A DNA stretch of 64,000 nucleotides from positions 2,996,001 to 3,060,000 of the forward strand of contig NC_083517.1 of the NCBI RefSeq assembly GCF_032362555.1. Direction: 5' to 3'. Source of the stretch: Amyelois transitella. Taxonomy: Eukaryota; Arthropoda; Insecta; Lepidoptera; Pyralidae. Made by a program: the position numbers and the translations under genes. Below the pieces are notes generated by a model. That model was not told the origin of the DNA. It saw nothing but the letters and a program-made list of their open reading frames with translations, and did no database searches. Each line of letters opens with the position of its first letter. Positions within the stretch are counted from its first letter, which is position 1. Positions 907 through 59,769 of this stretch are shown one piece after another.

Positions 907-1070
907 CTACTTTTTGTGATGCTCGTTTATTTGAATAAAACAAAAATTTTGAAATAATAATAATAATACATCAAGGCCAAACGAAATTTGTTTATCATAT
1001 ATCGGTGTCCAATGTCCATATTCGTTGCGAAGTTTCGATTGAGAGACGGGTTTTCTGTAACTGGCTGCAT
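907..1070 (-). CDS. Probable last exon, non-repetitive C-terminus
   Basis: The acceptor GCAATTTTAG is followed by AT, so the G left by the previous exon makes Asp in phase 1. The frame stays open for 53 residues to TAG at 907-909. The sequence starts DAASYRKPVSQSKLRNEYGH, contains basic and aromatic residues, then a hydrophobic stretch (LDVLLLLFQ). It has no repeat character. That its phase fits the rest of the gene supports it, but a different terminal exon is possible: I saw another acceptor/donor pair near 1701-1719, which would stop early. Confidence 0.5.
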
Positions 1071-4000
1071 CTAAAATTGCAAAAAAAGAAACAGAAAAAT
1101 ACATATTAAATACAATACAACCAATTTTAGGATAACAACCTTATTATAAGAATATAAAACTTAAAATTCAAAAACAAAATGTCTCCTGGTGTCTCTCTCA
1201 TAATAGTAATACAATGGCGGACAGTTTAGTTCGTGATTTTAAATGCCGAGCTCTGATAGGCTGAAGCGCTCTAGATTTTCGCGCCATACTTATAACAATT
1301 CGACTTCTGCGCAGGAATAACGATGTAACTTATAAAAATGCTAATACTAGACTGAGAATTCAAAAAATCTATTTAAAAACTCCATGAGGCCGTCTGGCTG
1401 AAAAAACCTTTGGCTTGAGCTTGATAAAAATATTCTTTTGTCCACATTTTATTTCTAAATTCTTAGTAAGATTATTTCGAAGACGTCATTGAAGATGCTG
1501 CAGTGCAGTTTTTACCGCTTTGGCAACTGCACTGACGCTTTGGAAGCAGCACTTAACTTAGTTTTAAGTTATTAATTCGACGTTAACCAATATTGTGAAA
1601 CCAAAATATAATATATTTTGGTTTATATTCGAAATGTCTACTGAAAATTTATAGGAAGGCAAATATGTAGGTATTAAACAAAGTTGTTTGTTTACTTACT
1701 TCTCACTTTTCTATCCGGCTGAAATAAAATTTAGAGTTATAAATTTAATTTAATTTGCAACGTACCACTTTTAATAAGACACTAGAGTCAAAAAGAAAAG
1801 CATAGGTAGTACGACAAATGACAAGTTTTCTTATTGGACAAACTGAAACATGAGAAACTATTTTTTTTTTTTGTGAAATTACCATTTTTGAATTAGGTAC
1901 GAGTATATTTTATTTATTTCAAACTATACTGATCTACAAGTTTTACGAAGTAGATTCTAGACCATTCAAACCTTATAAACAAAGAAATTAGATTCATACC
2001 TTTACTAGTTTATTCATGAAAATATGAGTTGAAAAGACTTTCAGGAATAGTCTTTGAAATTATATTCTTGGGTGATTTCCCATTCTCAAAAATGTACCTA
2101 TATTAAATCTTGAGCTACCTAATCCTGGATACTGATCAAAAGGCTCATCCCGGGCTCCTCTCCAGACAGGTTAGGATGTAACCGAGATACAAACATACAT
2201 ACATATGGTCACGTCTATATCCCTTGCAGGGTATGCAAATGCCGTGTGGTTCCCGGCACCAATACAAAGAAGAATACGACCACTCCATCTCTTTCCCATG
2301 GATGTCGTAAAAGGCAACTAAGGGATAGGCTTACAAACTTGGGATTCTTTTTTAGGCGATGGGTTAGCAACCTGTCAATATTTGAATCTCTGTTCTATCA
2401 TTAAGCCAAATAGCTGAGCGTGGCCATTCAGTCTTTTCAGGACTGTTGGCATTGTCTACCCCGCAAGGGATATAGACGTGACCATATGTATATATGTATG
2501 TAGACAGAGCCAACAGTCTTGAAAAGACTGAATGGCCACGTTAACGTTGTAACCGAGATTAATACTAAAAAGAAGATCCATGGATCATTACCTTGTGCTG
2601 CGGCTGCTGCGTTGGCAGCCGCGGAAGCTTTTCCTCCGCTAGCTATAATAAGAATGAAAAATAAATTCAAAATTAAGATTAGATCCACTTCGACCTAAAC
2701 ATACCTGCTAAATGTTCCCGGCACCATTACAAAAAAGAATAGGACCCCTCCATCTCTTTCCCACGGATTTCGTAAAAGGCGACTAAGGGATAGGCTTATA
2801 AACTTGGGATTCCTCTTTTAGGCGATGGGCTAGCAACCTGTCACAATTTGAATCTCAATTCTATCACTAAGCCAAACAGCTGAGCTTGGCCTATCAGTCT
2901 TTACAAGACTGGTGGCTCTGTCTACCCCGCTAGGGATATAGACGTGATCATATGTATGTATGTACGTATGTTACTTGCAAGTTGAGATATTAATTTGTAA
3001 ATTATTTTAAACTTTCACGTTTCAAGTTTCATATACTATATATGTATATGTTAATAATACAGATATTAAACGCTCACGAAATGTACCTTAAATTAAGCTC
3101 GGATATCAAAAATAAAGGTACGATATGTTATATTTTGTCAGACTACAGGCTCTTTGGTGCGTAGCGGGTCAAGTCGTTAAGGTGTCGGATTAAAATCGTG
3201 ATGCACATATAGGCACGGGTTGAAATCCAACCACAGTACTGTACCAACGATTCCTTTCAGAGATATGTGAGTGTTGTTGATGTTCTTACGGTGAGGGAAA
3301 ATAACATGAGGAAACTGGCACATTCAAGCAGCTGGATATGCACTGATAGGGTTAGGTTCCCCTGCTAGAAATCGTTTCGTATTAAAACCTAATCCAGGAA
3401 ATTGATTGTAAGTTAATGAAACATCAACAGCTCTTGATAAATAGATTGATCATTGAGCTGAACGTGGCCTTTTAGTCTTTTCTCAAGACTGTTGGCTCTG
3501 TTTACCTCGTAAAAGATATAGACGTGACTATAATATGTATGTATGTCTGTATGGCTCTTATCTTTTAATTGGTCTATCGTTATTAGTTTCCGATTAAATA
3601 ATTGTCTAATTTTGATCTCTGCCTACTTTTTGATGTTGTTATACATACATACATAAAATCACGCCTCTTTCCCGGAAAGGCAGGCAGAGACTACCTCTTT
3701 CCACTTGCCACGATCTCTGCATATTTCCTTCGCTTCATCCACATTCATAATGATGTTGTTAACTGTACTTTATTAGTCTATAAATGATGGGCTTAAAATT
3801 AGTTGGTATGAGTATTTTACCTGCGGCATTAGCGGCGGCAGCGGCATTTGCTGATGAGTTTGGACCATTTGCTGTAAATTTAATAATATTGTGAAGGGTT
3901 TCATACGAGTTCATAAAAAATAGTACAAGTGAATTGTATGATGTAAGACATTAACTAGTTTAAAAAAATTGAAAGCTAATTTATATATAACACAGTAATT

Positions 4001-7000
4001 TTAAAACCTTTTATTGAATCTTGATACCCCAATGTATTATTATATTTTATTGTTGTTCATTAATGAGCTTATATACTCCTTGATGACGTCCTTGGTTCTA
4101 TCTATACATACATACATATGGGCACGTCTATATCCCTCGCGGGGTAGACAGAGCCAACAGTCTTGAAAAGACTGAATGGCCACGTTCAGCTATTTAGCTT
4201 AATGATATAATTGAGACTCAAATAGTGAAGGTTGCTACACCATCGCTTAAAAAGAATCCCAAGTTTGTAAGCCTATCCCTTAGTCGCCTTTTACGACATC
4301 CATGGGAAAGAGATGGAGTGATCCTATTCTTTTTTGTATTGGTGCCGGGAATCATCCGAAATAGCCTTAACATTAGAAGTAGGTATGTGTATCTTACCTG
4401 CGGCATTAGCGGCGGCAGTGGCATTTGCTGCTGCGTTTGGACCAGTCGCTGCAATGTATTATATAATACATATATTTATACTTGCATATAAACACGTCTT
4501 CTTATCTTACGAAGTAGACAGTGTACACAAACTTAAAAAGATTGGAAGGCCACGCTTAGCTTAAAGAGCATTTTAAATTGAAATAGACTGTAGTGTAAAT
4601 ACAGCATAGAGAATTATCTATCCTCGAATAGATTTCAAGTAATTATTTTGTTCATACTTACAAATATATAATCACGTCTGTATCCCTTGCAGGGTAGACA
4701 GAATCAACAGTCTCGAAAAGATTGAAAGGCCACGTTCAGCTGGCTATGGCTTAATGACGCGGAATTGGGATACAAATACTGACACGATTCTAGCGCAGGT
4801 ACAAAAAGAATCTCAAGTTTATTAGACTTTCTCTTAGTCGCCGTTTACGATATCCGTGGCATTTTTTTTACATTCATCCAGCCAACTAATTAGGTAATGT
4901 TTTTATTACCAACGGCGTTGGCGGCAGCGGCGGCATTGGCTGATGTACTGGGAGCACTAGCTGTAAATATAATACACATGATTACATCTTTATCCCTTAC
5001 GGGGTAAACAGAGCCGACAATCTTGAAAAGACTGAAAGGCCACGTTCAGCTTTATGGGTTAATGATGGAATTGAGATTCAAATAGTGATACGTTGCTTTT
5101 GTAGTTATAGCGGGAACGTAACTACAAAATTTGCGGAAAATTCAGCTTTGTAGTTATCATAGCTTATAAAAAATGGTAGGTAACAGACAGACGGACAAAC
5201 AAATTACATATGTATTTCCGTGTCCGATCTAACAACAAATGCTTCAATTAAAAAATATATATTATATACAGTAAAATTACAGTTATTAATGGTAGACTTG
5301 GCCGGTATTTCATATTATTGTGCTCAAATCCTGAATGCAATACTCTGTAGTATTAAACTGTTGTTAAAGATTATGCAAAGGCCAAAAAACAAAATTGAAA
5401 AACAAAAAATATCTTACTAGACGTAGGTACTTATCAGAGCTGGTTAAAACCATAATAATAACCATTTTATGACTAAGTATACAAATTTAAGGAAACATAA
5501 AAGTAAGTGTAAAAAAAAAATAAGTAAACAGAATCTCACCAGATGATGACTCAGAGCTGGATGATGTGGTCGAAGCACTGGTGTTGCTTCCTGCAAGCGT
5601 TACGTAAATGTCAACACCTTCTTGTGACTACAAACGTTTTAGAAAACGCGAGAGCAGAACATTATAAACATAGGTAAACATGACTCTGCATGGTTTGTCA
5701 CAACACTCCATGCACTTGTCGAGAGCACTCGAGCTTTTGATATCTTAACAAAATAACTAATGCAATACACATACGTTGACTAAAATGAAAACCTTGGAAT
5801 CTAAAAGTTTAAGAAAAAAAGTAACCAGAATCTCACCAGTTGATGACTCAGAGCTGGATGATGTCGGCGGAGGACTGGTGATTGCTGCAATCATGACGTT
5901 GCTGTCAACATCTTGTTGTTACCATAATAAACTTTTCTGAAGCCTTATAGCATTTGAAATGATTAACGCTTGCCTACAAGGCCTTTATAACAATCTAACC
6001 GCTTGCTAACGGGGCCAACACAGCCAAGTGCTTGCTTCTGGAGCATTAATGGGCATGTCAATTTTTGCCTTTGGGGCAGCATCAAAGTTGTCCTTTCCTT
6101 TGTTAGCAATGTAATGTGTTAAAAAGCATTAAAAATTGTAAAAGAATAATCAAAGAATCTTAAAGAAGATTAATCGGAGACAAAAACCAATCTTACAAGA
6201 TGTCGCAGGAGGAGTAGGTGGAGCACTGTTGCTGCTTCCTGCAAGCATAACGTAAATGTTTAAAACTTTCTTGTAACTTTCTTAACAAATATTTAAAAAA
6301 AACATGGAAATAAATTAGAACGCTAGACGAAACAGAGAGACAAAATTACTGTATTTTTATATGTATTTTGACTAAAATTAGAAACTCGGAATCTAAAATG
6401 AAAGTGTAAAAAAATATGATATGTAAGAAATATAAGAAAAGAAGTGTAAGTAACCAGAATCTCACCAGTTGATGACTCAGGGCTGGAAGATGTCGGCGAG
6501 GCATTGGTGCTTGCTGCAATCATTACGTAAATTTCAAAACCATTACAAAAAAGAATAGGACCCCTCCATCTCTTTCCCACGGATGTCGTAAAAGGCGACT
6601 AAGGGATAGGCTTATAAACTTGGGATTCCTCTTTTAGGCGATGGGCTAGCAACCTGTCACTATTTGAATCTCAATTCTATCACTAAGCCAAACAGCTGAG
6701 CTTGGCCTATCAGTCTTTTCAAGACTGGTGGCTCTGTCTACCCCGCTAGCGATATAGACGTGATCATATGTATGTATGTATGTATGTTACTTGCAAGTTG
6801 AGATATTAATTTGTAAATTATTTTAAACTTTCACGTTTCAAGTTTCATATACTATATATGTATATGTTAATGATACAGATATTAAACGCTCACGAAACGT
6901 ACCTTAAATTAAGCTCGGATATCAAAAATAAAGGTACGTTATGTTATATTTTGTCAGACTACAGGCTCTTTGGTGCGTAGCGGGTCAAGTCGTTAAGGTG

Positions 7001-10000
7001 TCGGATTAAAATCGTGATGCACGTATAGGCACGGGTTGAAATCCAACCACAGTACTGTACCAACGATTCCTTTCAGAGATATGTGAGTGTTGTTGATGTT
7101 CTTACGGTGAGGGAAAATAACATGAGGAAACTGGCACATTCAAGCAGCTGGATATGCACTGATAGGGTTAGGTTCCCCTGCTAGAAATCGTTTCGTATTA
7201 AAACCTAATCCAGGAAATTGATTGTAAGTTAATGAAACATCAACAGCTCTTGATAAATAGATTGATCATTGAGCTGAACGTGGCCTTTTAGTCTTTTCTC
7301 AAGACTGTTGGCTCTGTTTACCTCGTAAAAGATATAGACGTGACTATAATATGTATGTATGTCTGTATGGCTCTTATCTTTTAATTGGTCTATCGTTATT
7401 AGTTTCCGATTAAATAATTGTCTAATTTTGATCTCTGCCTACTTTTTGATGTTGTTATACATACATACATAAAATCACGCCTCTTTCCCGGAAAGGCAGG
7501 CAGAGACTACCTCTTTCCACTTGCCACGATCTCTGCATATTTCCTTCGCTTCATCCACATTCATAATGATGTTGTTAACTGTACTTTATTAGACTATAAA
7601 TGATGGGCTTAAAATTAGTTGGTATGAGTATTTTACCTGCGGCATTAGCGGCGGCAGCGGCATTTGCTGATGAGTTTGGACCATTTGCTGTAAATTTAAT
7701 AATATTGTGAAGGGTTTCATACGAGTTCATAAAAAATAGTACAAGTGAATTGTATGATGTAAGACATTAACTAGTTTAAAAAAATTGAAAGCTAATTTAT
7801 ATATAACACAGTAATTTTAAAACCTTTTATTGAATCTTGATACCCCAATGTATTATTATATTTTATTGTTGTTCATTAATGAGCTTATATACTCCTTGAT
7901 GACGTCCTTGGTTCTATCTATACATACATACATATGGGCACGTCTATATCCCTCGCGGGGTAGACAGAGCCAACAGTCTTGAAAAGACTGAATGGCCACG
8001 TTCAGCTATTTAGCTTAATGATATAATTGAGACTCAAATAGTGAAGGTTGCTAAACCATCGCTTAAAAAGAATCCCAAGTTTTTAAGCCTATCCCTTAGT
8101 CGCCTTTTACGACATCCATGGGAAAGAGATGGAGTGGTCCTATTCTTTTTTGTATTGGTGCCGGGAATCATCCGAAATAGCCTTAACATTAGAAGTAGGT
8201 ATGTGTATCTTACCTGCGGCATTAGCGGCGGCAGCGGCATTTGCTGCTGCGTTTGGACCAGTCGCTGCAATGTATTATATAATACATATATTTATACATG
8301 CATATAAACACGTCTTCTTATCTTACGAAGTAGACAGTGTACACAAACTTAAAAAGATTGGAAGCCCACGCTCAGCTTAAAAAGCAGTTTAAACAGAAAT
8401 GGACTGTAGTATAAACACTATAGAGAATTATCCATCCTCAAATAGATTTCAAGTGATTATTATGTACATACTTACAAATATATAATCACGTCTTTATCAA
8501 CAGTCTCGAAAAGATTGAAAGGCCACGTTCAGCTGTATGGCTTAATGATGCGGAATTGGGATACAAATACTGACACGATACTAGCTTAGGTAGGTACAAT
8601 AAGAATCCCAAGTTTATTAGACTTTCTCTTAGTCAATGTTTACGACATCCGTGGCATTTTTTTTACATTCATCCAGCCAACTAATTAGGTAATGTTTTTA
8701 TTACCAACGGCGTTGGCGGCAGCGGCGGCATTGGCTGATGTACTGGGAGCACTAGCTGTAAATATAATACACATGATTACATCTTTATCCCTTACGGGGT
8801 AAACAGAGCCGACAATCTTGAAAAGACTGAAAGGCCACGTTCAGCTTTATGGGTTAATGATGGAATTGAGATTCATATAGTGATACGTTGCTTTTGTAGT
8901 TATAGCGGGAACGTAACTTTGCGGATAAAAATTTGCGGATAATTCAGCTTTGTAGTTATCACAGCTTATAAAAAATGGTAGGTAACAGACAGACAGACAA
9001 ACAAATTATGTATTTCCGTGTCCGATCTAACAACAAATGCTTCAATTAAAAAATATACTATATATTATATACAGTAAAATTACAGTTATTAATGGTAGAC
9101 TTGGCCGGTATTTCATATTATTGTGCTCAAATCCTAAATGCAATACTCTGTAGTATTAAACTGTTGTTAAAGACAATGCAAAGGCCAAAAAACAAAATTG
9201 ACAAAACAAAAAATATCTTACTAGACGTAGGTACTTATCAGAGCTGGTTAAAACCATAATAATAACCATTTTATGACTAAGTATACAAATTTAAGGAAAC
9301 ATAAAAGTAAGTGTAAAAAAAAATAAGTAAACAGAATCTCACCAGATGATGACTCAGAGCTGGATGATGTGGTCGAAGCACTGGTGTTGCTTCCTGCAAG
9401 CGTTACGTAAATGTCAACACCTTCTTGTGACTACAAACGTTTTAGAAAACGCGAGAGCAGAACATTATAAACATAGGTAAACATGACTCTGCATGGTTTG
9501 TCACAACACTCCATCCACTTGTCGAGAGCACTCGAGCTTTTGATATCTTAACAAAATAACTAATGCAATACACATACGTTGACTAAAATGAAAACCTTGG
9601 AATCTAACAGTTTAAGAAAAAAAGTAACCAGAATCTCACCAGTTGATGACTCAGAGCTGGATGATGTCGGCGGAGGACTGGTGATTGCTGCAATCATGAC
9701 GTTGCTGTCAACATCTTGTTGTTACCATAATAAACTTTTCTGAAGCCTTATAGCATTTGAAATGATTAACGCTTGCCTACAAGGCCTTTATAACAATCTA
9801 ACCGCTTGCTAACGGGGCCAACACAGCCAAGTGCTTGCTTCTGGAGCATTAATGGGCATGTCAATTTTTGCCTTTGGGGCAGCATCAAAGTTGTCCTTGT
9901 CTTTGTTAGCAATGTAATGTGTTAAAAAGCATTAAATATTGTAAAAGAGTAATCAAAGAATCTTAAAGAAGATTAATCGGAGACAAAAAACAATCTTACA

Positions 10001-31000: not shown

Positions 31001-34000
31001 TTGTAAATTATTTTAAACTTTCACGTTTCAAGTTTCATATACTATATATGTATATGTTAATAATACAGATATTAAACGCTCACGAAACGTACCTTAAATT
31101 AAGCTCGGATATCAAAAATAAAGGTACGTTATGTTATATTTTGTCAGACTACAGGCTCTTTGGTGCGTAGCGGGTCAAGTCGTTAAGGTGTCGGATTAAA
31201 ATCGTGATGCAAGTATAGGCACGGGTTGAAATCCAACCACAGTACTGTACCAACGATTCCTTTCAGAGATATGTGAGTGTTGTTGATGTTCTTACGGTGA
31301 GGGAAAATAACATGAGGAAACTGGCACATTCAAGCAGCTGGATATGCACTGATAGGGTTAGGTTCCCCTGCTAGAAATCGTTTCGTATTAAAACCTAATC
31401 CAGGAAATTGATTGTAAGTTAATGAAACATCAACAGCTCTTGATAAATAGATTGATCATTGAGCTGAACGTGGCCTTTTAGTCTTTTCTCAAGACTGTTG
31501 GCTCTGTTTACCTCGTAAAAGATATGGACGTGACTATAATATGTATGTATGTCTGTATGGCTCTTTTCTTTTAATTGGTCTATCGTTATTAGTTTCCGAT
31601 TAAATAATTGTCTAATTTTGATCTCTGCCTACTTTTTGATGTTGTTATACATACATACATAAAATCACGCCTCTTTCCCGGAAAGGCAGGCAGAGACTAC
31701 CTCTTTCCACTTGCCACGATCTCTGCATATTTCCTTCGCTTCATCCACATTCATAATGATGTTGTTAACTGTACTTTATTAGACTATAAATGATGGGCTT
31801 TAAATTAGTTGGTATGAGTATTTTACCTGCGGCATTAGCGGCGGCAGCGGCATTTGCTGATGAGTTTGGACCATTTGCTGTAAATTTAATAATATTGTGA
31901 AGGGTTTCATACGAGTTCATAAAAAATAGTACAAGTGAATTGTATGATGTAAGACATTAACTAGTTTAAAAAAATTGAAAGCTAATTTATATATAACACA
32001 GTAATTTTAAAACCTTTTATTGAATCTTGATACCCCAATGTACGTTTCTTTACGACGATACTTTTTATTGTTGTTCATTAATGAGCTTATATACTCCTTG
32101 ATGACGTCCTTGGTTCTATCTATACATACATACATATGGGCACGTCTATATCCCTCGCGGGGTAGACAGAGCCAACAGTCTTGAAAAGACTGAATGGCCA
32201 CGTTCAGCTATTTAGCTTAATGATATAATTGAGACTCAAATAGTGAAGGTTGCTAAACCATCGCTTAAAAAGAATCCCAAGTTTTTAAGCCTATCCCTTA
32301 GTCGCCTTTTACGACATCCATGGGAAAGAGATGGAGTGGTCCTATTCTTTTTTGTATTGGTGCCGGGAATCATCCGAAATAGCCTTAACATTAGAAGTAG
32401 GTATGTGTATCTTACCTGCGGCATTAGCGGCGGCAGCGGCATTTGCTGCTGCGTTTGGACCAGTCGCTGCAATGTATTATATAATACATATATTTATACA
32501 TGCATATAAACACGTCTTCTTATCTTACGAAGTAGACAGTGTACACAAACTTAAAAAGATTGGAAGCCCACGCTCAGCTTAAAAAGCAGTTTAAACAGAA
32601 ATGGACTGTAGTATAAACACTATAGAGAATTATCCATCCTCAAATAAATTTCAAGTGATTATTATGTACATACTTACAAATATATAATCACGTCTGTATC
32701 CCTTGCAGGGTAGACAGAATCAACAGTCTCGAAAAGATTGAAAGGCCACGTTCAGCTGGCTATGGCTTAATGACGCGGAATTGGGATACAAATACTGACA
32801 CGATTCTAGCGTAGGTACAAAAAGAATCTCAAGTTCATTAGACTTTCTCTTAGTCGCCGTTTACGACATCCGTGGCATTTTTTTTACATTCATCCAGCCA
32901 ACTAATTAGGTAATGTTTTTATTACCAACGGCGTTGGCGGCAGCGGCGGCATTGGCTGATGTACTGGGAGCACTAGCTGTAAATATAATACACATGAATG
33001 AATTGGTATTTGCATCATGCTCAAATTTCTGAATAAATTCAGTTCTGTGGCAATAAATTTGTTTTTAAAGAATAATCAAAGACCAAGCAATGACAAAAAT
33101 AAAATCTCACTGGATGATTTAGGAGGAGTAGGTGGAGCACTGGTACTGCTTCTTGTAAGCATAACATAATGTTAACACCTTCTTGTGTCTACACACATTT
33201 TAATAAAGCATTTAAGTATATTACATATATGTATAAAACTTGAGAAGAAAAAGAGAATTATAAAAATAGGTATACACAACTTTGCTTGGCTTGACACAGC
33301 ACTGGTTCTACTTGTCTAAAGAATTCAGCTTCGGTTTCGATCTAAGAATTGGGCTATTTAAAATAACCTTATGAAATAACTAATATAATACACATACTTG
33401 GAATAAAATAAATAACTCTGCATTTAAAATGAAAATGAAAGAAATACATAAGTAAACAAAGTCTCACTAGTTGATGACTCAGGGCTGGACGATGTCGGCG
33501 GAGCACTGGTGTTTGCTGCAATCATGACGTTAATGTCAACATCTTGTTGTTATCAAAACATCTTAGTTGTTATCATAACAAGTTTAAGTATTGGCATTCC
33601 CGATGCATAAGTTTGACAGCAGAGGAACAATTAAATCATTATATATTTTGATTGCCGAAGGGGCTTCAGAAAATATCTACTCTACTATTTCACGCTTGCC
33701 TACGGGGCCTTCACGGGGAAGTGCTTGATTTCGGAGCCTTGCAGCATTAATGAGCATGATTAACATTTACTGCTGGGGCCTGGCAGCATCAAATCTGTCC
33801 TTGTCTTTGTTAGAAATGTTATGTGTTTAAATGCATTAAAATGTTGTAGAAGATTGATCAAAGAGCAATAAAGTATAAAAACAATCTTACAAGATGTCTC
33901 AGGAGGGGTAGGTGGAGTACTGGTGCTGCTTCCTGCAAGCGTAACGTCAATGTGAACACCTTCTTGTGACTACACACATTTTAGAAAACATGATACTTTC

Positions 34001-37000
34001 AATTAAAACATGAAAGAAAGATGGCATTATAAACATGACACGACGAGAATTAATTTAGGTTTCTCACCTAGACTAACTTGACTTTTTGATATTTAAACAA
34101 ACTAACTTATGTAATACATGACCTACTTTACTTAAATTTGGGATCAAAAATTGAGGTGTAAGTAAAGAAAATAAGTAAACAGAATCTCACCAGTTGATGA
34201 CTTAGGGCTGGATGATGTGGGCGGAGCCGTGGTGCTTGCTGGAATCATATGACAGTAATGTCAATACCTTTTTGTTACAATAATTAAAAAATAAATTTAA
34301 AAAAAGTGAAATTAGTATTGTAAATAATAGTTCGTAATTTCTTATGAGTTTTTTGTAATAGTTGTGAAAGATAAAAATATCTAACGAGATGTTTCTTCGG
34401 TGGATGAGCACAGCACTAGCGACAGTGCTCCCAGAAGGATTTTTCACAACGCATTTTGCGATTTGAAAAAAGTTGTCTGCTTTAACTTAATTATTAAAAT
34501 ATAATATGAGTTATCGTATGCTAAGTAAATGAGAAATGGGAAGCTTACATGATGACTCAGAGCTAGAAGATGGCGTAGTAGGCGTTGTACTACTGCCCGC
34601 TGCAAGCATAAAGTTATCAATATTGTTTGAGTACTTACGCATTTATAATTGAAAAAATAATACGAGTCATCATTGTAAAAAGTTGAATGAATTGTTAAAA
34701 CTTACCACCTGCTACAGCTGTTAAAAAAAACGAAAAAATATAATATTGAAATGTCACTTATAATAGTTTGAAGTAGGGGTAGGACTTATGGTCCCGAAAA
34801 TTTGTGGCGGATGGTGCAACTGAGAACTCGGCTAAATGATAGAGTGAAAATTCGTTTTCACGAGGTTTAGTAATATCATACATTGTATTTTTTAACTAGG
34901 GATTCCCTTTTAAAGATTGAATTCTTTCATCGGTTACTGAATAGAAATATAGGTCAATGACCGTAGTAATGATAGCGGTCACTGTTAGAGCAATGCGGGC
35001 TTCGTTTCAATTTTTCAACAAAGGTAAAGGTTCAGATGTGATTTCTCACTACGATCGGGTCGGTGTTAACGATCTTGTCCAATAATTCTTGTTCTTGGTT
35101 AGTTGGGATCTATTATTTTTTAGGATTATACCTTTTTAATATTTAACAATACATACCAATAGCGGCTGCGTTCCCGTTGCTTCCTGTAATGTTTTTAATG
35201 AAAAATAATAATAATTAAAAATAACGCATACCTACAATTATTCGATCCAACATTTAGACCTGTCAATTTAATTACTAGAATTTTTACTTTTATTTATTAT
35301 TATACCTTTAATTTTATCAGCTGCTCCCAATCAAAATATATATGTAATATTCTCTTTTTTCTGAAAAATTGCATGAATTTTTTGCGTGTTGCTAATTTAA
35401 ACTTATAAACAGGCAGAAATTCTACAATTCACATTTTTGTCGTATACATGTACATTTTTGGCTTCTGTTGGTCATATATACACACATATATATATCGATT
35501 ATTTTTTGTAAATATGTCATTTCAAGTCCAGACATCGGTCAATTATAATAAATGTATGGATAATCAGTATAAAGTAATAAATGAGTACCATTTGCGCTCG
35601 ATAACGCCGCTGCATTCGCATTTCCTCCAGATGCTAGAAAATAAAACAAAAATAAAGTATTTTTTACAACAGCTCATAAAATTAACTGATTTCATTATTT
35701 ATTTAGCCAAATAACGGGGAAACATAAACCTAAGCAAAGAAAAATCTTTTTTTATAATAGTTAAAATTTTATTTAGACAGTCATTTATTTTACATCATTC
35801 GAAATAACATTGACACTTTGATCAAATCGCTGAAGTTCTGGCGAGAGATCAAGTCAAAGTGGCCAAAACCGACGAGCTTGTATGTAGGGGGTTATGAAGA
35901 CGTAGTGTCTGAATACGGGATTCCAGGAAAAAAGGCATTATTTATATGTAGGTACGTGTAATTATGTTTTTGCTAAAGAACACGTCTGAATAAAAAAAAA
36001 AACAACCATCGACATATTTGCATTCTATACAAGTTGAGCAAACACAAATTAAAAATTTAAAATAAAATAAAATAAATCTTTTTTGGTTACCATTAGCAAC
36101 CGACAATGCCGCAGCATTCGCTTTTCCTCCCGATGCTGAAAAAAAAAGTAAAATGAATTCGAAACCTGAATTTTTTTGAAAATTGAATTAAAAAAAAATC
36201 GTATTAGAATGACGTCCAGTTTGCTGGGTCAAGACACTGAACTGTTTGGTATGTAGGTCCCTTATGCGGTATAGGGGTGCACTAACAGAGGATTCCTGAA
36301 AGTCCTGGCACGATATTTAACGGGATTTTTCGTTTCATCCTATTCTTAATATAAAACTGATTTACTGACATTATTACAGCCGTAATCCAAACCGATGGGT
36401 CTAGAGATTTGAAATTTGACATGTAGGTTGGTTATGTGGTCTTTTTATAGTTGTTTTCCATTTTTTCCATGGGACGGAGTCGGCCTTTGTGGCGCAACGG
36501 TAATACGCTTGTCTGTGACACCGGAGGACCCAGGTTCGAATCTCGGTCAGGGCATGATGAGAAACTTTCTCTGATTGGTCTGGGTCTTGGAAAAAAAAAT
36601 TTGTTATTTAAGTCACCCAGTTTTCTCAATAAATAAATAAATAATCACTTACCGTTCGCTTGAGATAAAGCTGAGGCAGAACTGTTTCCTGATGCTGATA
36701 TGGAAAAAAAATTAAACATTCTTAAAATAAAAAACTACAATTCATATTCATATGTAAGAATCAAATACTTATAGGTAGAGAAATCAATTCATATTCAAAA
36801 GTAACTTATTTCTATATTTAAATTTTATTAATAACTAGAGGCCGCCCGCGACTTCGTCCGCATGGAAACCCTATCAATCCCGCGGGAACTCTGGGATAAA
36901 AAGTAGCCTATGTGTTATTCTGGGTCTTCAGCTACCTACATACCAAATTTCATGGTAATCGGTTCAGTAGTTTTTGCGTGAAAGAGTAACAAACATCCAT

Positions 37001-40000
37001 ACATCCATACAAACTTTCGCCTTTATAATAGTAGTAGGATTAAAATACTAACATAAAATAAAATTTTAACGAAACTGATAATACTCATAACTTATACTTA
37101 TTTACAAATATGCCTGTCTAAACAAGATTGTAAAAATTCTAAATTCCATCATAAGGCCATACAGCCGTGGCCTTTCAGTCATTTCAAGATTGCTGGCTCT
37201 GTATACCCCGCAAAGGATAAAGTCTAAATGCAGATTGTAAGAGACTGATATCTTAACTAAGTCGGGGGTATTTTGTAAAATTAAAAGTATATTATTACAC
37301 TAGACTCCAATGAACTTAAAGGAAAAATTGAAAGTAAATAACATACCTTGGGCTGTTTTTGTTTATGGAAAGACAAAAATAATAAAATTTATTAATGCAC
37401 TTACTTACGCTTGACACACTGATTTTGGTATATTCAGAAATTGTAGTTACAAAATTGATTCATTGTTTTTGGGCATTATTAGCCTAAACACCTCATAATG
37501 CAATTGGATATTTACGTAGTAAAATTTTCTATACTCTGCATCTCACCCTTGAATGGCGTAAAAGACGACTAAAGGATAAGGGATATACTTGAGATTCTTT
37601 TTGTAGGCGATGGACTAGCAACCTATTACTATTTTAATCTCGATTCCATTGTTAAGCCATACAGTTCCATGTGGCCTTTTAGTCTTTCAAGCCTGTCGGC
37701 TCTGTCTACCCCGTAAGGGATAAAGACGTGACTATATGAACATTCATATAGTCAAGCTCATTCCATTTACATAGCTATGTAAATGATATGCGCTAGCAAC
37801 CTGCACTTACACTTAAACGATTCTAACGACTACCGGCTCTGTCTCCACCGCAAAATATAATGATGTGATATTTATATTATACAATTAATACGTAAAATTA
37901 GTACATACCGACAGATTGAGCTATGCTGGTTGCTGGAAAATAAAACGAAAATCATCTGTTTAAAACAAAATGAAAAGTCTTTTTTGTAAATCTCGTAAGA
38001 AAAGATAATTAAAGTAAGGAGTTTGTCTCTTTGTCATCATTGTCATTAATCTTCATAGACATAAGTTTGCAAATGTATGTAACTAAATCTGGAAAAGGGC
38101 TAGACCGATTTTAGTTTCGAAATGTTTTCCGTTGTCCAAGGGAGGTAGATATGAAATATGATGAGTTATCTCTTTGGTTAATGATGTAGGTACGTATGTA
38201 ATGTGCCGTGTGGTTCCCGGCACCAATAAAAAAAAGAATAGGACCACTCCATTTCGTTCCCATGGATGCCGTAAAAGGCGACTAAGGGATAGGCTTATAA
38301 ACTTCGGATTCTTCTTTGAGGCGATGGGCTAGCAACCTGTCACTACTTGAATCTCAATTCCATCAATAAGCCAAACAGCTGAACGTGGCCTATCAGTCTT
38401 TTCGGGGCTGATGGCTCTGTCTACCCCGCGGGAAATATAGATGTGATTATATGTATGTATGTAATATTACCTGAGTTTGAACCTCCGAAGAAAGGGAAGT
38501 TGAATGCTGAAAATTGAAAAACACAAACATTTTTATATTGCACGTAAAACATCTTCATACAATGTTGACGCTTTAATTTGCAAATGATACAATACCATGA
38601 AACGACATTTTCGATTTTTTTTTCAAACCATACTTTTATCTGTTTAGTTTCTTGTTTGATTATTTTTTGTACAACTCATTGATCATGTTATTTAGTGTTT
38701 GCAACACTGAGTTAACCTGGTTACACCCACGATGACTCCACTACTTCAAAACGATGATCTTTGCTATTGCTGTGGCTGTTGAGATGAGAACATGCTGTTG
38801 AACGGCCTCTGTGGCGCAGCGGTAGTACGCTTGTCTGTGACACCGGAGGTCTCGGGTTCGAATCCCGGCCAGGGCATGATAAGAAAAGAACTATTTCTGA
38901 TTCGCCTGAGTCTTGGATATTTATCTATATAAGTATTTATTATAAAATATAGTATCGTTGAGTTAGTATCTCGTAACACAAGTCTCGAACTTACTTCGAG
39001 GCTAACTCAATCTGTGTAATTTGTCCCGTATATATATATATATATATCTATAACTTCCATCGGTCGAGGAATACATGTAATTGTTGTATAATGTAGCTTC
39101 TCTTATTAACTGACTAATAACTGTAAAATAATATTAGTGCCGTGCGGTTCCCGGCACCAATACAAAAAAGAATAGGACCACTCCATCTCTTTCCCATGGC
39201 TGTCGTAAAAGGCGACTAAGGGATAGGCTTACATACTTGGGATTCTTTTTTAGGAGATGGTTTAGATACCTGTCCCTATTTGAATCTCAATTCTATCATT
39301 AAGCCAAATAGCTGAACGTGGCCATTCAGTATTTTCAAGACTGTTGGCTATATCTGCCCCGCAAGGGACAACGTGATCATATGTATGTATATGTAATATT
39401 AATATTCTAATATCTTGCTAGAGGTCTGATACTTGACATACATGGCTAAAGAACAAAGCATGGTGGGAAGACTGTAGATGGAGATACAACATAATTTATC
39501 CACAATTTATGTGAGCTGAGATATATACATAAAAATAACCAAACTGTACGAGAAAAGGTAAGTCGCTTAGCTCGTCTTGGTGTAGCACATTTTGTTTGCT
39601 AAACCAATCTTCAACTTGTAAACCTTTGCTAACATTAGTAGGTACTTCGAGTATTTTCACCAACCTGGTCTATTGATGTTAGGTGTTAAGGTCTGGTATC
39701 GAGGTAGCTCGATGCTTCCCGACGGCCTCCGAATCCGCAGTCGTAAGTATCGACAACGTGCGTTTGGATTTGTGAAAACACTCAAGCTTTTCAAGTACAT
39801 AATCTCACATGGATTGTTCTTCAAATAGTCAGGAAGAAGGAAGAAGGCTGAGGAAATTTTTGATAATGACTCATGTGAGGGTTCTTAGATTTTTTAAACT
39901 CAGAACTATTTAGTGTTCTTGGAAAGTGACACGAGAAATACGTATTTAACAAAAACCCAACGATAAATTAATCAATACTTAGAACACAACTGGCCCGTTT

Positions 40001-41148
40001 AAAAGGTGCTTTAACAGAAGAATATTTTTCAGATCATGCCTCGCCAGGTATGGTTTATTTAAGGCGCAATTGATCGATCGATGAACAATTACAAAACGAA
40101 GAACCTAAACAAAGGAACAGCTGTGCAATAATAACATATTGCTAATAAGACACCCAATGAACTTTTCGTCCAATAAGCGATCAATGAAAGACAATTTAAA
40201 CGTAATGATGAAGACAAAGAATTTCTTTGGAAGGTAGAAGGGGAAACCATGGGTCCCGGTAGCCACCTGGCGGACGTCAATACCATGTCAGAGGCAAATG
40301 ATAACTCTCATTACAGGTGTCTTTGATTGTGGTGAGAATCAACATGCAAGCATCAGGTCTCATAGGTCATGGTTGTCATGCTCATAATATTATTTAATAC
40401 AATAGAATTGAATTCAATATTTTGCCTAAAGGCGCTACAAAAGCTTAGCCTGGCTAATTTGGGGTTCTAAATATACTTAATCTTACGGAAGATATAGTGA
40501 ATGAAATTCATGTAACCAATGATTTGCCTATCGAAACCATAACATTTTGAAAAAGTTTTAAAAATTTGTTTTAATAAAACACTGATTGTATTTAAAGTGA
40601 AGTACTGGCCATAAAAGGATCAGCTTCGAGTGTAAAACAAATTCTCATAGAAGAAAAAACTTTAGAGAAAAGAACTATCAATGCAAGTAGATCTAAATAA
40701 AAATTCATGGAAGAAAGATGTATCTCAAGGAGATTAAGAAGAATACGACTTGAATCAGAAATATTTCGAGTCAAACAAAAAATTGTATTTATATTTTTTT
40801 AAGTTGATAAAATATTGTGACATTATTAAAAGATTTTTGTCTACAAATTCTAACAAAGTATATGACTGAAGAACAAAATTGACATATGATTAAAGACTAT
40901 GCGCTAATAAACATTTTTCGGTCTAATAAACAAAAAAAATCTGCTCAAGAACCATTTGATATAAAAAAGAATAAAAGTTTCTCAGTCGAAATTTTAAATA
41001 AACGATATACCTATATGTAATGATAAATATTTTTTTCTCTTAGAAAAGATGCAAATGAATAAGATAACTTACGGAATTGAGCATTTGACCCGCCAGGTTG
41101 GGCTACTAACAACCATATTATGGGCACCAGAAATTTTAATAGAGCCAT
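907..41148 (-). CDS. Secreted Ala/Ser-rich repetitive protein encoded by about 67 micro-exons (silk- or mucin-like)
   Basis: I assembled this gene by hand from splice signals. Exon 1 (41073-41148) encodes a 25-residue signal peptide ending in a perfect C|GTAAGT donor. It is followed by 65 exons of 6-51 nt and a last exon at 907-1070. Every internal exon is a multiple of 3, starts and ends in phase 1, has AG/GT borders and contains no in-frame stop. The lengths sum to 3,258 nt, i.e. 1,085 codons plus stop. The predicted protein alternates Ala/Asn-rich blocks such as ANAAAAANAA with Ser/Thr/Pro/Glu blocks such as SSSSESS, with no cysteine in the repeats. A signal peptide plus such composition suggests an extracellular structural or coating protein; Bombyx sericin-type silk genes are a plausible comparison. 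Homology is not shown and the function is inferred. Alternatives are a mucin, a salivary secretion or an eggshell component. Confidence is high for the exon pattern and low for the role. Confidence 0.75.
1071..2193. other. Last intron of the micro-exon gene
   Basis: AT-rich. One acceptor/donor pair (TTTATTTCAG...GTAAGTAAAC, 1701-1719) encloses 19 nt with a stop in phase 1; I did not accept it as an exon. No mobile element recognised. Confidence 0.4.
2241..2500 (+). repeat. LIR-A interspersed repeat
   Basis: Starts GCCGTGTGGTTCCCGGCACC, continues through CATGGATGTCGTAAAAGGC and GTCTACCCCGCAAGGG, ends (TATG)n. About 250 bp, non-coding. A reverse-oriented fragment precedes it (2194-2238) and another follows (2501-2545). 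Confidence 0.75.
2419..2540. repeat. Imperfect inverted repeat of LIR-A ends
   Basis: Arm 2419-2458 (GTGGCCATTCAGTCTTTTC...) pairs with 2501-2540 (...GAAAAGACTGAATGGCCAC) around a 42-nt loop containing GACGTGACCATATG. Confidence 0.65.
2592..2642 (-). CDS. Penultimate exon (51 nt), ASGGKASAAANAAAAAQ
   Basis: Acceptor CTTATTATAG, donor G|GTAATGATC. It lies just outside the tandem array. Its ASGGK start matches exon 6 near the 5' end of the gene, so related Ala cassettes bracket the amplified core. Confidence 0.7.
2713..2970 (+). repeat. LIR-A copy at the array edge
   Basis: Same family; it spans the junction between unique flank and unit 1 and recurs at the low-coordinate end of every unit. 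Confidence 0.7.
2724..6539 (-). repeat. Array unit 1 (last transcribed; 3,816 bp, seven micro-exons)
   Basis: Exons: a 6466-6513, b 6197-6238, c 5837-5884, d 5540-5590, e 4910-4960, f 4398-4448, g 3821-3871. Exon f has one change relative to the other units (C to T on the plus strand near 4439, Ala to Thr). The unit joins single-copy flank inside a LIR-A element at 2713-2724, so unequal pairing between LIR-A copies is a possible origin of the edge. Confidence 0.8.
4105..4351 (-). repeat. LIR-A copy inside the array unit (g-f intron)
   Basis: Minus orientation: an ACATACATACATATGGGCAC end through to TTGGTGCCGGGA. Present at the same place in units 1-4 and 6-8; largely replaced in unit 5. Further short fragments of the family follow at about 4470-4560, 4660-4850 and 4980-5090. 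Confidence 0.7.
6540..10341 (-). repeat. Array unit 2 (3,802 bp), reference unit
   Basis: Exons in transcript order: a 10268-10315 (ASTNASPTSSSPESST), b 10000-10041 (GSSNSAPPTPPATS), c 9640-9687 (SITSPPPTSSSSESST after the T|CA join), d 9343-9393 (GSNTSASTTSSSSESSS), e 8705-8755 (ASAPSTSANAAAAANAV), f 8214-8264 (ATGPNAAANAAAAANAA), g 7637-7687 (ANGPNSSANAAAAANAA). The coding total is 342 nt, 114 residues: four Ser/Thr/Pro blocks then three Ala/Asn blocks. Donors are GTGAGATT (a, c, d), GTAAGATT (b), GTAATA (e), GTAAGATA (f) and GTAAAATA (g). The introns hold a SINE, LIR-A fragments and a retroelement fragment, at the same positions in the other units. Confidence 0.85.
10342..14143 (-). repeat. 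Array unit 3 (3,802 bp, seven micro-exons)
   Basis: Exons: a 14070-14117, b 13802-13843, c 13442-13489, d 13145-13195, e 12507-12557, f 12016-12066, g 11439-11489. Compared by eye with unit 2 I found only about three substitutions (near 11041, 12829 and 12938), all intronic. This implies very recent duplication or conversion. Confidence 0.85.
14144..17946 (-). repeat. Array unit 4 (3,803 bp, seven micro-exons)
   Basis: Exons: a 17873-17920, b 17604-17645, c 17244-17291, d 16947-16997, e 16309-16359, f 15818-15868, g 15241-15291. The low-coordinate part matches unit 3. The part above about 17500 carries unit 1-type variants (the CCTTTCCTTTG and TTTCAAAACC forms), so a subtype switch lies inside the unit. 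Confidence 0.85.
18280..18512 (-). mobile_element. Lep1-like Helitron inserted in array unit 5
   Basis: Read on the minus strand it starts TCTATATATATAAAAGCG and ends with the hairpin CGCGGACGAAGTCGCG shortly before CTAG, then T. It is 233 bp and non-coding. Units 1, 7 and 8 show the empty site GTTAATAATACAG, so the insertion went between A and T with no duplication, as Helitrons do. It is absent from all other units. Confidence 0.85.
19717..20930. repeat. Unit 5-specific insert, unclassified repetitive DNA
   Basis: It replaces about 150 bp present in other units. 20350-20830 contains a G-rich stretch (GGGAGGGGAGGGGGG), ACCAAATTTCAGTTTTCTAG and GTGAGTGAGTGACG, a pattern seen in moth mobile DNA. 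20845-20925 shares CTTCGAGAAAAGGTAG and GGGGGCACTACC with 56970-57055 and weakly 39540-39600. No coding capacity recognised. Confidence 0.5.
23102..26903 (-). repeat. Array unit 6 (3,802 bp, seven micro-exons)
   Basis: Exons: a 26830-26877, b 26562-26603, c 26202-26249, d 25905-25955, e 25267-25317, f 24776-24826, g 24199-24249. It has the same length as units 2 and 3 and I see only scattered single-base differences, for example near 25444 and 26931. Confidence 0.85.
26904..30729 (-). repeat. Array unit 7 (3,826 bp, seven micro-exons)
   Basis: Exons in transcript order: a 30656-30703, b 30388-30429, c 30028-30075, d 29731-29781, e 29101-29151, f 28589-28639, g 28001-28051. In exon c a T-to-C change turns the last Thr codon into Ala. 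The f-e intron matches unit 1 (it has the CTGTATCCCTTGCAGGGTAG stretch missing from units 2-6), and near 28216 it keeps the longer version shared with units 5 and 8. It is therefore a mosaic of the two unit subtypes. Confidence 0.8.
33111..33152 (-). pseudogene. Unit 8 exon d, probably dead cassette
   Basis: A 42-nt cassette would read GSSTSAPPTPPKSS, but the base before it makes the acceptor CTTACAA instead of CTTACAG. The nearest AG is one base further in and gives 41 nt and a frameshift. The donor A|GTGAGATT is intact. The exon is most likely skipped. Confidence 0.5.
33468..33515 (-). CDS. Unit 8 exon c (48 nt), NTSAPPTSSSPESST
   Basis: Acceptor ATGATTGCAG, donor A|GTGAGACT. It is a full-length, in-frame cassette, the only one ending in A. 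Confidence 0.65.
33891..33932 (-). CDS. Unit 8 exon b (42 nt), GSSTSTPPTPPETS
   Basis: Acceptor TACGCTTGCAG, donor T|GTAAGATTG, same borders as exon b of the other units. It has Glu where the array copies have Ala. Confidence 0.65.
34191..34238 (-). CDS. Unit 8 exon a (48 nt), diverged Ser/Thr/Pro cassette
   Basis: Acceptor ATGATTCCAG, donor G|GTGAGATT. After the split codon it encodes STTAPPTSSSPKSST. It has Lys where all other copies have Glu in the SSPESS motif. Frame and phase are intact. Confidence 0.65.
34386..34431 (-). pseudogene. Decayed Ser/Pro micro-exon
   Basis: The position and flanks match a cassette like those at 33891 and 6197, with a donor-like C|GTTAGAT. The acceptor AG has become TG (CCTTCTG) and the apparent length of 46 nt is not a multiple of 3. 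It is probably skipped; including it would break the frame. Confidence 0.45.
34549..34599 (-). CDS. Exon 10 (51 nt), first Ser/Thr/Pro cassette
   Basis: Acceptor TTTATGCTTGCAG, donor T|GTAAGCTTC. It encodes AGSSTTPTTPSSSSESS. The TGCTTGCAG acceptor is shared by all GS-type cassettes downstream. It ends in T, so the next codon (T|CA) is Ser. Confidence 0.65.
34706..34717 (-). CDS. Exon 9, a 12-nt micro-exon (AVAG)
   Basis: CTGTAGCAGGTG lies between TTTTTTTTAACAG and GTAAGTTTT, both strong sites. It adds AVAG in frame. Confidence 0.5.
35157..35183 (-). CDS. Exon 8 (27 nt), GSNGNAAAI
   Basis: Acceptor AACATTACAG, donor G|GTATGTAT. Nine codons in phase 1; it reads like a shortened Ala/Asn cassette. 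Confidence 0.6.
35589..35633 (-). CDS. Exon 7 (45 nt), ASGGNANAAALSSAN
   Basis: Acceptor TTATTTTCTAG, donor G|GTACTC (weak beyond GT). It is the same length as exon 6 and nearly the same peptide. Confidence 0.65.
36091..36135 (-). CDS. Exon 6 (45 nt), ASGGKANAAALSVAN
   Basis: The acceptor is a long T tract ending TTTTTCAG and the donor is G|GTAACC. The ASGGK start recurs in the penultimate exon of the gene (2592-2642), and exon 7 is a close paralogue, which shows duplication at the level of single exons. Confidence 0.7.
36481..36643 (+). mobile_element. tRNA-derived SINE with a different, shorter tail
   Basis: The tRNA-like head has A box TGGCGCAACGG and B box CAGGTTCGAATC. The body then diverges and ends in (AATA)n. 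It is in the intron between exons 5 and 6 of the micro-exon gene. Confidence 0.7.
36653..36688 (-). CDS. Exon 5 (36 nt), GNSSASALSQAN
   Basis: Acceptor ATATCAGCATCAG, donor G|GTAAGTGATT (strong). Phase 1 in and out, 12 codons. A tRNA-SINE lies directly downstream in the following intron, ending about 10 bases from the donor. Confidence 0.65.
36835..37039 (-). mobile_element. Lep1-like Helitron in the intron between exons 4 and 5
   Basis: On the minus strand it starts TCCTACTACTATTATAAAG and ends GACGAAGTCGCGGGCGGCCT then CTAG, between A and T of the target. 205 bp, non-coding, needs a helicase from elsewhere. Confidence 0.8.
37347..37352 (-). CDS. Exon 4, a 6-nt micro-exon (Ala-Gln)
   Basis: CCCAAG lies between AACAAAAACAG and GTATGTTATT. 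Joined to the preceding G it encodes Ala-Gln and ends in G, exactly as the neighbouring exons do. It is too short to be certain from sequence alone. Skipping it would leave the frame intact, so transcript evidence is needed. Confidence 0.4.
37535..37740 (+). repeat. LIR-A partial copy
   Basis: Begins at GGCGTAAAAGACGACTAAAGG (lacking the 5' third) and ends GACGTGACTATATG. Confidence 0.55.
37909..37932 (-). CDS. Exon 3 (24 nt), ATSIAQSV
   Basis: Acceptor TTTATTTTCCAG, donor G|GTATGTAC. Eight codons in phase 1 encode ATSIAQSV. The intron upstream contains a LIR-A copy. Confidence 0.6.
38205..38462 (+). repeat. LIR-A copy in intron 2 of the micro-exon gene
   Basis: Full length from GCCGTGTGGTTCCCGG to the (TATG)n tail, which ends only 8 bases from the donor side of exon 2. 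Confidence 0.75.
38471..38506 (-). CDS. Exon 2 (36 nt), FNFPFFGGSNS
   Basis: The acceptor is AATTTTCAG and the donor G|GTAATATT. With the split first codon it encodes PFNFPFFGGSNS, an aromatic, Gly/Ser-bearing start of the mature chain unlike the later Ala/Ser repeats. It is preceded by a 2.57-kb intron that carries a SINE and a LIR-A copy. Confidence 0.65.
38802..39047 (+). mobile_element. tRNA-derived SINE, full-length copy
   Basis: Head with A box TGGCGCAGCGG and B box GGGTTCGAATCC, a body with TATTTATTATAAAATATAG, and an end at TTGTCCCG followed by a (TA)n tail. It lies in intron 1 of the micro-exon gene. RNA polymerase III would use the internal boxes. Confidence 0.8.
39137..39394 (+). 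repeat. LIR-A copy in intron 1 of the micro-exon gene
   Basis: Full length with scattered changes; tail ATGTATGTATATG. Confidence 0.75.
39395..41072. other. Rest of intron 1, nothing coding recognised
   Basis: Short frames of 60-65 codons exist on the minus strand, but they show no known motif or splice pattern. A short segment near 39540-39600 resembles the repeat at 20845. Confidence 0.4.
41073..41148 (-). CDS. Exon 1: signal peptide of the micro-exon gene
   Basis: The 76 nt encode a 25-residue peptide beginning MALLKFLVPIIWLLVA and ending in GGSNAQF. It has a lysine near the start and a hydrophobic core (LVPIIWLLVA), with small residues near a likely cleavage site at NA|QF. The donor is C|GTAAGTTAT. 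The ATG at 41148 is the first one after the TATA box and initiator. The exon ends with one base of a split codon; joined to CA of exon 2 it makes Pro. Confidence 0.75.
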
Positions 41149-41196: not shown

Positions 41197-41206
41197 TTTA
41201 TATATA
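41197..41206 (-). promoter_or_regulatory. TATA box of the micro-exon gene
   Basis: On the minus strand TATATATAAA lies about 50 bases upstream of the ATG at 41148. About 30 bases after it comes CAGCAGTC, a plausible insect initiator (CAGT-like), which would leave a leader of only about 25-30 nt. A strong TATA box with a short leader is common in highly expressed tissue-specific secretory genes of Lepidoptera. The start site is inferred. Confidence 0.5.
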
Positions 41207-49746: not shown

Positions 49747-49805
49747 TGTAAATCAAAGGGATAAGTTTAACTGATCGATAAGTAAAGGGAATTTTATAAG
49801 ATACG

Positions 49806-55490: not shown

Positions 55491-55499
55491 GGTACATAA

Positions 55500-55612
55500 A
55501 ATTATCGTGTCAGTAAAGTTTGTTTCCGTATCTACTCCCCCGAAACGGCTTGACCGATTCTCATGAAATTTTGTGAGCATATTGAGCAGGTCCGAGAATC
55601 GGCCAATAACAT
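55500..55612. repeat. Dispersed non-coding repeat
   Basis: CCCGAAACGGCTTGACCGAT and TCTCATGAAATTTTGTGAGC are segments common to many moth mobile elements. It sits between the LINE and a SINE. Class uncertain. Confidence 0.35.
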
Positions 55613-58890: not shown

Positions 58891-59769
58891 AACCGATCAA
58901 AGCCAGGGCTCTACTTAGGATCACGATTCAGAAATGAGTAAATCAGGAACGAAGTGAGTCGGGAACAAGCTAGCAAATTTTTACCTAGTGAAAAACCATA
59001 ATCAAAGATGGGTTAGGATGCCTTATTCAGACGAAAATTGCTGACTGATGTCATGGCTAAAGAACGGAATGCAACAGACAAACTGAAGTAGGGTAAAAAA
59101 CATCGCTTTTTTTCTTATCTCTAAGGTCAAAAGAAGTACAAAGACAGTTTTATTTTATGTTAAATTTTTATAAGAAAATAAAAATAAAATATACGACTTT
59201 TCTCCTTGAGATTTAATAAGACAGTGAGAATTATTCTTGACGATTATACATAACTAAAAAGTTTCAATAGGTAGAGAGCAAAAAGGCAAGATTCCTCAGG
59301 CCCAAGTCAGAAAATTAAAAAAGCGACCAGTCGAATTGATACAAAAAATAAAAATAACTCATAAATCTAAAACCACAAAACTATCCCCACACCTCTATTA
59401 CTTACTCCAATAAGGGAACTATTCTCAGAATGCGCTCAAAAAGCTATACAATAATTAATTGTCTGTCCCTTGCGGCCGCAGAATTTATTGCGGAATTATT
59501 ATTGAAAAGGTCTCTCGGTGCCGGACAAATTGTGGCGGGAAGGTTTTTACTTAACCGACACGGGGATTTTGATGGTGTCGTGGTATAGAATTATTAATAG
59601 TGTATGTAACAGTTTATGTCTTAGTGTGCAATTTAGAGTAAAATTTGGCCATCGGAGCGTATCAACAGGTCTTTTTTTGGATACTGTGTGATCAGTGCGC
59701 ATTGGCAGGATTTCTATGGATTTTTTTTTTGGTAATAAGTAAAAAAAAAAAAAGTATAATTGTATTGAT

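Follow-up and report, generated by a model that had tools for sequence, protein, structure and literature searches.

The window analysed here, a stretch of 64,000 nucleotides from the navel orangeworm Amyelois transitella (a pyralid moth of the subfamily Phycitinae), carries on its minus strand a locus of about 40,000 bases that has the form of one apparent gene split into about 66 tiny coding pieces. Exon 1 (41073..41148, minus strand, as for all gene features below) holds the start codon and a hydrophobic leader, MALLKFLVPIIWLLVAQPGGSNA followed by QF, which we take as a putative signal peptide; both the leader and its cleavage site (Ser at -3, Ala at -1) were judged by eye. A TATA element at 41197..41206, starting 58 nt upstream of the ATG, is a candidate promoter from which the gene may be transcribed.

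The exon chain runs from 41148 to 2592 and comprises 3,100 nt, corresponding to 1,033 codons plus one base, without a stop codon. The 65 internal exons are 6–51 nt long (mean 46.5 nt), always a multiple of 3, bounded by AG and GT, and start at codon position 2 (intron phase 1). Introns average 545 nt (range 106–2,566), so that 8.04% of the locus is exonic, and the G+C content is 57% in exons vs 34% in introns. Since the exons were chosen by phase, by length and for lack of stops, these features are no evidence by themselves. An earlier sequence-only reading had described a signal-peptide exon followed by 65 same-phase internal exons of 6–51 nt, a frame without internal stop, about 67 exons in total and an exonic share of about 8 percent, and all of this is recovered in our model, where the total is made up of exon 1, the 65 internal exons and one terminal exon.

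The first internal exon encodes PFNFPFFGGSNS (38471..38506) and is followed by seven N-terminal micro-exons rich in Ala, Ser, Asn and Gly (34706..37932), located at 37932-37909, 37352-37347, 36694-36653, 36135-36091, 35633-35589, 35183-35157 and 34717-34706. The 6-nt member at 37352-37347 is the weakest single exon, its acceptor score (-4.21) being the lowest of all. A further candidate in this region, 35259-35236, was dropped, as its junction with the next exon creates a TGA. Next come a leading, older Ser/Thr/Pro block of four diverged exons (33468..34599; 34599-34549, 34238-34191, 33932-33891 and 33515-33468), delimited from the exon chain and from comparison with its paralogs, and a leading Ala/Asn triplet (31827..32976; 32976-32926, 32466-32416 and 31877-31827). 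A fifth upstream Ser/Thr/Pro exon at 33151-33111 has lost the AG acceptor of its relatives; counted from the nearest AG, its length would be 41 nt and would break the frame, which stays intact if the exon is skipped. It is apparently a dead micro-exon that would be passed over in splicing, and the harmlessness of its omission is what one expects of symmetric exons. At the other end of the chain, the last full coding micro-exon, ASGGKASAAANAAAAAQ (2592..2642), resembles the N-terminal ASGG exons.

The 3' end and the predicted protein

Two readings of the 3' end were compared. The sequence-only reading had placed the stop codon in a coding terminal exon at 1070-907, which, joined in phase, adds 54 residues that end in an AT-rich, hydrophobic stretch and include a single Cys. 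We dropped this coding assignment, as the TAG (909-907) ends 19 nt past an AATAAA (931-926), about where cleavage is expected, and as it requires skipping of a slightly better acceptor at 1718 (score 2.84 vs 2.16; 0.8% and 1.3% of the AGs in the gene, respectively, score as high). From the latter acceptor, a 19-nt exon (1700..1718) ends in QAG and a stop codon and is followed directly by GTAAGT (donor score 3.4). It thus seems likelier that the stop lies in the exon at 1718-1700, that the last exon (907..1070) is probably 3' untranslated, and that the protein has 1,035 residues. Another AATAAA at 1453 makes it possible that the gene ends after 1718 with no further intron. The length of 1,085 codons given previously has to be corrected in either case, as the count is 1,087 with the terminal exon of that model and 1,035 with the exon at 1718.

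After removal of the putative signal peptide, the predicted product (residues 25-1035) has a mass of 89 kDa, a pI of 4.05 and a GRAVY value of -0.30. It is dominated by Ala (29.7%) and Ser (27.8%), followed by Thr (10.6%), Asn (10.3%) and Pro (9.9%), with Ser, Thr and Pro together accounting for 49% of residues 25-1033. Within these 1,009 residues there are 24 acidic, 3 basic and 5 aromatic residues, 28 sequons at which N-glycosylation may occur, and no Cys, which is also absent from the preferred A-G ending. Much of the chain is built from a module of 114 residues, in which a part of 63 residues (Ser 46, Thr 17, Pro 14%) is joined to one of 51 residues (Ala 57, Asn 18%). Such a chain is expected to be disordered and of low complexity, and a scan of a 352-aa shortened version against Pfam-A returned no family at E<=0.001. 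The leader peptide (by eye), the composition and the conserved exons described below give good support to the proposal of the sequence-only reading that the gene encodes an extracellular protein of Ala/Ser repeats.

Tandem cassettes and conservation of the exons

An organization not mentioned in the sequence-only reading is the arrangement of most exons in seven tandem cassettes, each consisting of four Ser/Thr/Pro and three Ala/Asn micro-exons. Together with the leading Ala/Asn triplet, they extend from 32976 to 3821 and comprise 52 of the 65 internal exons. Exon chain and unit alignment place cassette 1 at 28001..30703, cassette 2 at 24199..26877, cassette 4 at 15241..17920, cassette 5 at 11439..14117, cassette 6 at 7637..10315 and cassette 7 at 3821..6513. 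The units of these six are about 3.8 kb long; cassette 3 (19310..23075) is the most diverged and carries additional intron sequence, so that its unit reaches 5,155 bp. Pairwise identity over all seven units is 95.7–99.9%. Units 2, 4, 5 and 6 are nearly indistinguishable (99.8–99.9%), units 1 and 7 are 98.4–99.0% identical to these four and to one another, and unit 3 is 95.7–96.8% identical to every other unit. Unequal crossing-over may have shaped the array, as it is compatible with units that are homogenised in the middle and diverged towards the ends.

A SINE-like repeat of about 250 bp (e.g. 4094-4345) has 53 matches in the window, 45 of them within the gene and 8 elsewhere, and cassette junctions lie near its end, which is approximate since the query element was cut by hand. 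The intron surplus of cassette 3 is found at 18279-20928, and a segment inside this stretch (19098-19239) matches 63319-63178 at 96.5%.

Conservation was examined at two depths. In an alignment of the seven tandem units (5,237 columns), 6 of 342 exon columns are variable, compared with 178 of 3,426 in the remainder (Fisher p=0.003, with columns treated as independent), and none of the 342 exon columns is gapped, compared with 1,469 gapped columns elsewhere, which stem largely from the longer unit 3. Three of the six exon changes are replacements and three are silent, a number too small to demonstrate protein-level constraint on its own. Older paralogous exons reach further back: exon identity exceeds that of the flanks (120 nt on each side) in all 37 pairs, and in the 11 older pairs which have the same length and are free of gaps, exons are 71–92% identical vs 41–76% for the 120-nt flanks.

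The exon types differ in how sharply conservation ends. For Ala/Asn and ASGG exons it falls off close to the splice sites, and third codon positions account for 9 of 15 and 7 of 9 variable columns, respectively. For Ser/Thr/Pro exons it extends some 20–30 nt into the flanks, and third positions are not overrepresented among the variable columns (4 of 12 and 1 of 5). This is the pattern that a loosely constrained mucin segment would give, and it is also weaker evidence.

Tests against chance, homolog searches and comparison with known systems

Splice signals were scored with generic matrices, used for ranking only. Splice scores alone yielded 3 candidates on the gene strand vs 8 on the opposite strand in the strict setting, and 9 vs 18 when a summed score of at least 4 was required; many acceptors score low on the generic matrix (median 0.6). 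As splice scores alone do not separate the strands, thresholds were relaxed and composition, mod-3 length and conservation were used. With permissive thresholds, the gene strand has 64 candidates, 40 of them rich in small residues, and the opposite strand has 30, none of them of this kind; these counts include array copies and nested alternatives. Within the non-redundant 12.1 kb (41300-29160), the figures for such micro-exon candidates are 17 of 31 and 0 of 16, while 200 dinucleotide shuffles gave a mean of 0.06 and a maximum of 1, compared with the 17 on the gene strand. A control stretch at 42–64 kb has 0 of 29 (minus strand) and 1 of 27 (plus strand).

Exon length provides a further test. 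With no filter on frame or length, and with nested alternatives counted separately, 33 of 57 splice-like pairs on the gene strand of 41300-29160 have a length divisible by 3, compared with 18 of 46 on the opposite strand and with 27 of 80 and 19 of 73 in the 42–64 kb control. Restricted to pairs with at least 50% G+C, the proportion rises to 19 of 24, vs 4 of 9, 3 of 21 and 4 of 17 in the controls. On the tests of composition, length modulus and conservation, we regard the predicted gene as real.

The sequence-only reading had proposed a protein search, which was done with shortened queries against 5.8 billion proteins and returned no homolog at E<=0.001. In the first search, residues 1-110 of a 300-aa query were compared with 2,300 candidates, and the second scored the best 8,000 candidates by words in common with a 693-aa query; composition correction, clustering at 90% and the limits on candidate number and length could hide a fragmentary gene model. 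As a control served an odorant receptor exon (7tm_6 family in Pfam) at 48916-49752 on the minus strand, which had 8 database matches. The top match, "putative odorant receptor 59c [Amyelois transitella]", shows 100% identity across 97% of the query and by itself identifies the navel orangeworm as the source of the window; the second is a receptor from Plodia interpunctella (62%). The searched database thus contains at least some proteins from the right species, and the lack of a homolog despite the success of the control indicates that the gene is probably missing from the current annotation or badly fragmented in it.

An open-access literature search over micro-exons in moth silk, split codons in elastin, and egg glue found no publication on this gene. 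Among moth proteins, the silk mucins of Yponomeuta cagnagella are among the closest in their published descriptions, as far as these were accessible: Muc1 has 32 exons and Muc2 has 24, and Muc1, a Ser-rich protein, "tends to duplicate entire exons" (PMC9684489). Muc1 and the predicted gene thus have in common repeats in which Ser prevails along with Thr and Pro, a large number of exons and whole-exon duplication. Silk-gland origin has been shown for Muc1 and Muc2 of Yponomeuta, whereas the Amyelois gene is known from its sequence alone. The coat adhesives of pyralids are described as sericins and mucins with a motif close to the C-terminus, CXCX in Ser1-like proteins and CXCXCX in Muc1 (PMC9745057). 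The three-Cys motif of Muc1 is absent from the predicted protein with either 3' end, the longer tail having a single Cys. Sericin 1-like proteins also carry their tandem repeats inside large exons (PMC9684489, accessible text), and neither this feature nor CXCX is found in our model. When the silk protein tables of Ephestia (30 rows) and Galleria (54 rows) were compared, none of these 84 tabulated proteins had a similar top-three composition (Ala 30, Ser 28, Thr 11), the nearest being Gm-Ser1B (Ser 35, Ala 21, Asn 14) and Ek-Ser1B (Ala 17, Ser 15, Pro 14) (PMC9745057). The predicted protein has the look of a mucin coat, yet with neither Cys motif and no match in composition we do not file it as Muc1 or Ser1. 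Sericin 4 of Bombyx mori, which has 34 exons and is divided into three by automatic gene models (PMC8228281), is similar in its many exons, going by description only, and the mucin-like silk genes of a basal moth are reported with 4 and 10 exons (PMC11906653, accessible text).

The sequence-only reading had also pointed to micro-exon genes of schistosomes and aphids as precedents, and we find similar plans in both. Micro-exon genes of schistosomes are defined by a signal peptide and short symmetric exons. The predicted gene has both, with the leader assigned by eye and the exons selected for symmetry. SmPoMuc, the polymorphic mucins of Schistosoma mansoni, is the closest genomic plan seen among the sources, which were available in part: it combines a signal peptide with mucin repeats, a 27-bp exon and its introns make up a unit of about 1 kb that occurs in tandem up to about 20 times, and introns average about 550 bp vs 545 here (PMC2576457). 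The likeness described here is one of plan. SmPoMuc, a multigene family, has one exon per repeat unit where the predicted gene has seven, and the mean length of its 15 basic exons is 60 bp.

Bicycle proteins of aphids carry paired Cys-Tyr-Cys motifs. These cannot be present in the predicted protein, as it has no Cys. According to the accessible text on bicycle genes, they have many small internal exons, almost all of which start at codon position 2, and they form a diverging family overexpressed in salivary glands; the megacycle gene has more than 100 micro-exons and encodes about 2,000 aa (PMC9168663). The start at codon position 2 is common to all 65 modelled internal exons, which were selected for phase; a diverging family is set here against a single gene with recent, near-identical cassettes.

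Vertebrate elastin likewise has symmetric same-phase exons, and these encode two alternating block types, one of them Ala-rich. The resemblance lies in this two-block alternation of symmetric exons, and the difference in the Lys cross-link sites, of which the predicted protein has next to none (3 basic residues among 1,009). A cassette of seven micro-exons of two kinds had no counterpart in the compared open-access literature, parts of which were covered, and this is no proof of novelty. The architecture is striking, yet in the sources compared its kind has clear precedents in moth silk mucins, SmPoMuc and the bicycle genes.

Possible nature and origin of the gene

Of several possible explanations, we favour, as the probable one, a single minus-strand gene encoding a secreted, Cys-free and acidic protein of about 1,035 residues, a mucin-like/poly-Ala coat or adhesive protein that has been lengthened by tandem duplication of the cassette. 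The putative signal peptide and the Ala/Ser/Asn exons would be followed by eight alternations of a mucin-like Ser/Thr/Pro segment (about 63 aa) with a poly-Ala/Asn segment (51 aa). The Ser/Thr/Pro segments may be O-glycosylated, with sugars that hold water, and the poly-Ala segments may pack together, so that the product would be a self-associating structural or adhesive coat protein of an epithelial gland, with the silk gland as first candidate. As all internal exons are symmetric and of the same phase, the reading frame stays intact whichever exon or block is duplicated, lost or skipped. The seven-exon cassette may have been multiplied in tandem by unequal crossing-over, in which case alleles should differ in cassette number and hence in the length of the protein. 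A bolder proposal, which we regard as rather doubtful, is that the gene represents an unannotated class of lepidopteran structural glycoprotein, a mucin/poly-Ala two-block copolymer of interchangeable same-phase micro-exons, with length and block order tuned by cassette copy number in populations and by frame-safe exon skipping in tissues.

It is extremely unlikely that the exons are AG...GT pairs drawn by chance from intron-like repeats where no gene exists. Such an origin would be compatible with the use of phase and length as selection criteria and with the failure of splice scores alone to tell the strands apart, but it does not account for small-residue-rich candidates at 40 vs none on the opposite strand and 17 vs at most one in shuffled sequence, nor for exon intervals that are better conserved than their flanks in every one of the 37 pairs. 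Decay of a gene whose former exons are no longer spliced into a working mRNA is also improbable. The exon without an acceptor at 33151-33111, the swollen cassette 3 and several low-scoring splice sites point in this direction; against it, variable columns are only one third as frequent in exons as in introns and no exon column is gapped, and the 65 modelled internal exons retain AG/GT and frame, though they were chosen for this.

The tissue of origin is a separate matter. Ser/Thr/Pro/Ala-rich secreted repeats are also produced for egg glue or eggshell and by reproductive accessory gland, gut and cuticle, and no feature seen in the sequence singles out silk. A mucin-like secreted protein from one of these tissues is therefore conceivable, a tentative assignment against which stand the lack of any Pfam domain, and hence of a chitin-binding or cuticle domain, in the 352-aa shortened version and, for egg glue, the lack of literature support among the matches listed. 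The sharper form of our favoured explanation, that the gene encodes a silk-gland mucin or sericin and thus a silk glue of Amyelois, is, like the silk link suggested in the sequence-only reading, a possibility we also hold with reserve. Middle silk glands of pyralids produce Ser-rich coat proteins, namely sericins and mucins (PMC9745057, PMC12661448), and genes with many exons are on record for such proteins, with 32 exons in Muc1 of Yponomeuta, where whole exons tend to be duplicated, 24 in its Muc2 (PMC9684489), and 34 in Bombyx Ser4 (PMC8228281), all as far as the accessible text of these sources goes. On the other side, the predicted protein lacks the C-terminal CXCX/CXCXCX motif, its top-three composition has no match among the 84 silk proteins in the tables for Ephestia and Galleria (PMC9745057), and the silk mucins described for a basal moth have just 4 and 10 exons (PMC11906653).

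If transcribed and spliced as modelled, the gene would be an extreme case of a coding sequence that consists of dozens of frame-neutral micro-exons and has grown as a seven-exon block was duplicated again and again. It would then offer a system for asking how secreted repeat proteins can become longer while having no large repetitive exon, and would raise the questions of how the spliceosome recognises 65 exons of at most 51 nt and how many such genes escape standard annotation.

The remainder of the window contains further repeat elements. A LINE-like element lies on the plus strand at 44254-47325 and is spread over several frames, with matches to an endonuclease (44857-45378) and a reverse transcriptase (45631-47325). 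A second reverse-transcriptase element occupies two frames on the minus strand at 53651-55501, of which the Pfam scan covered 54494-55501, and a tandem repeat with a period of 70 and 1.9 copies is located at 59768-59900.
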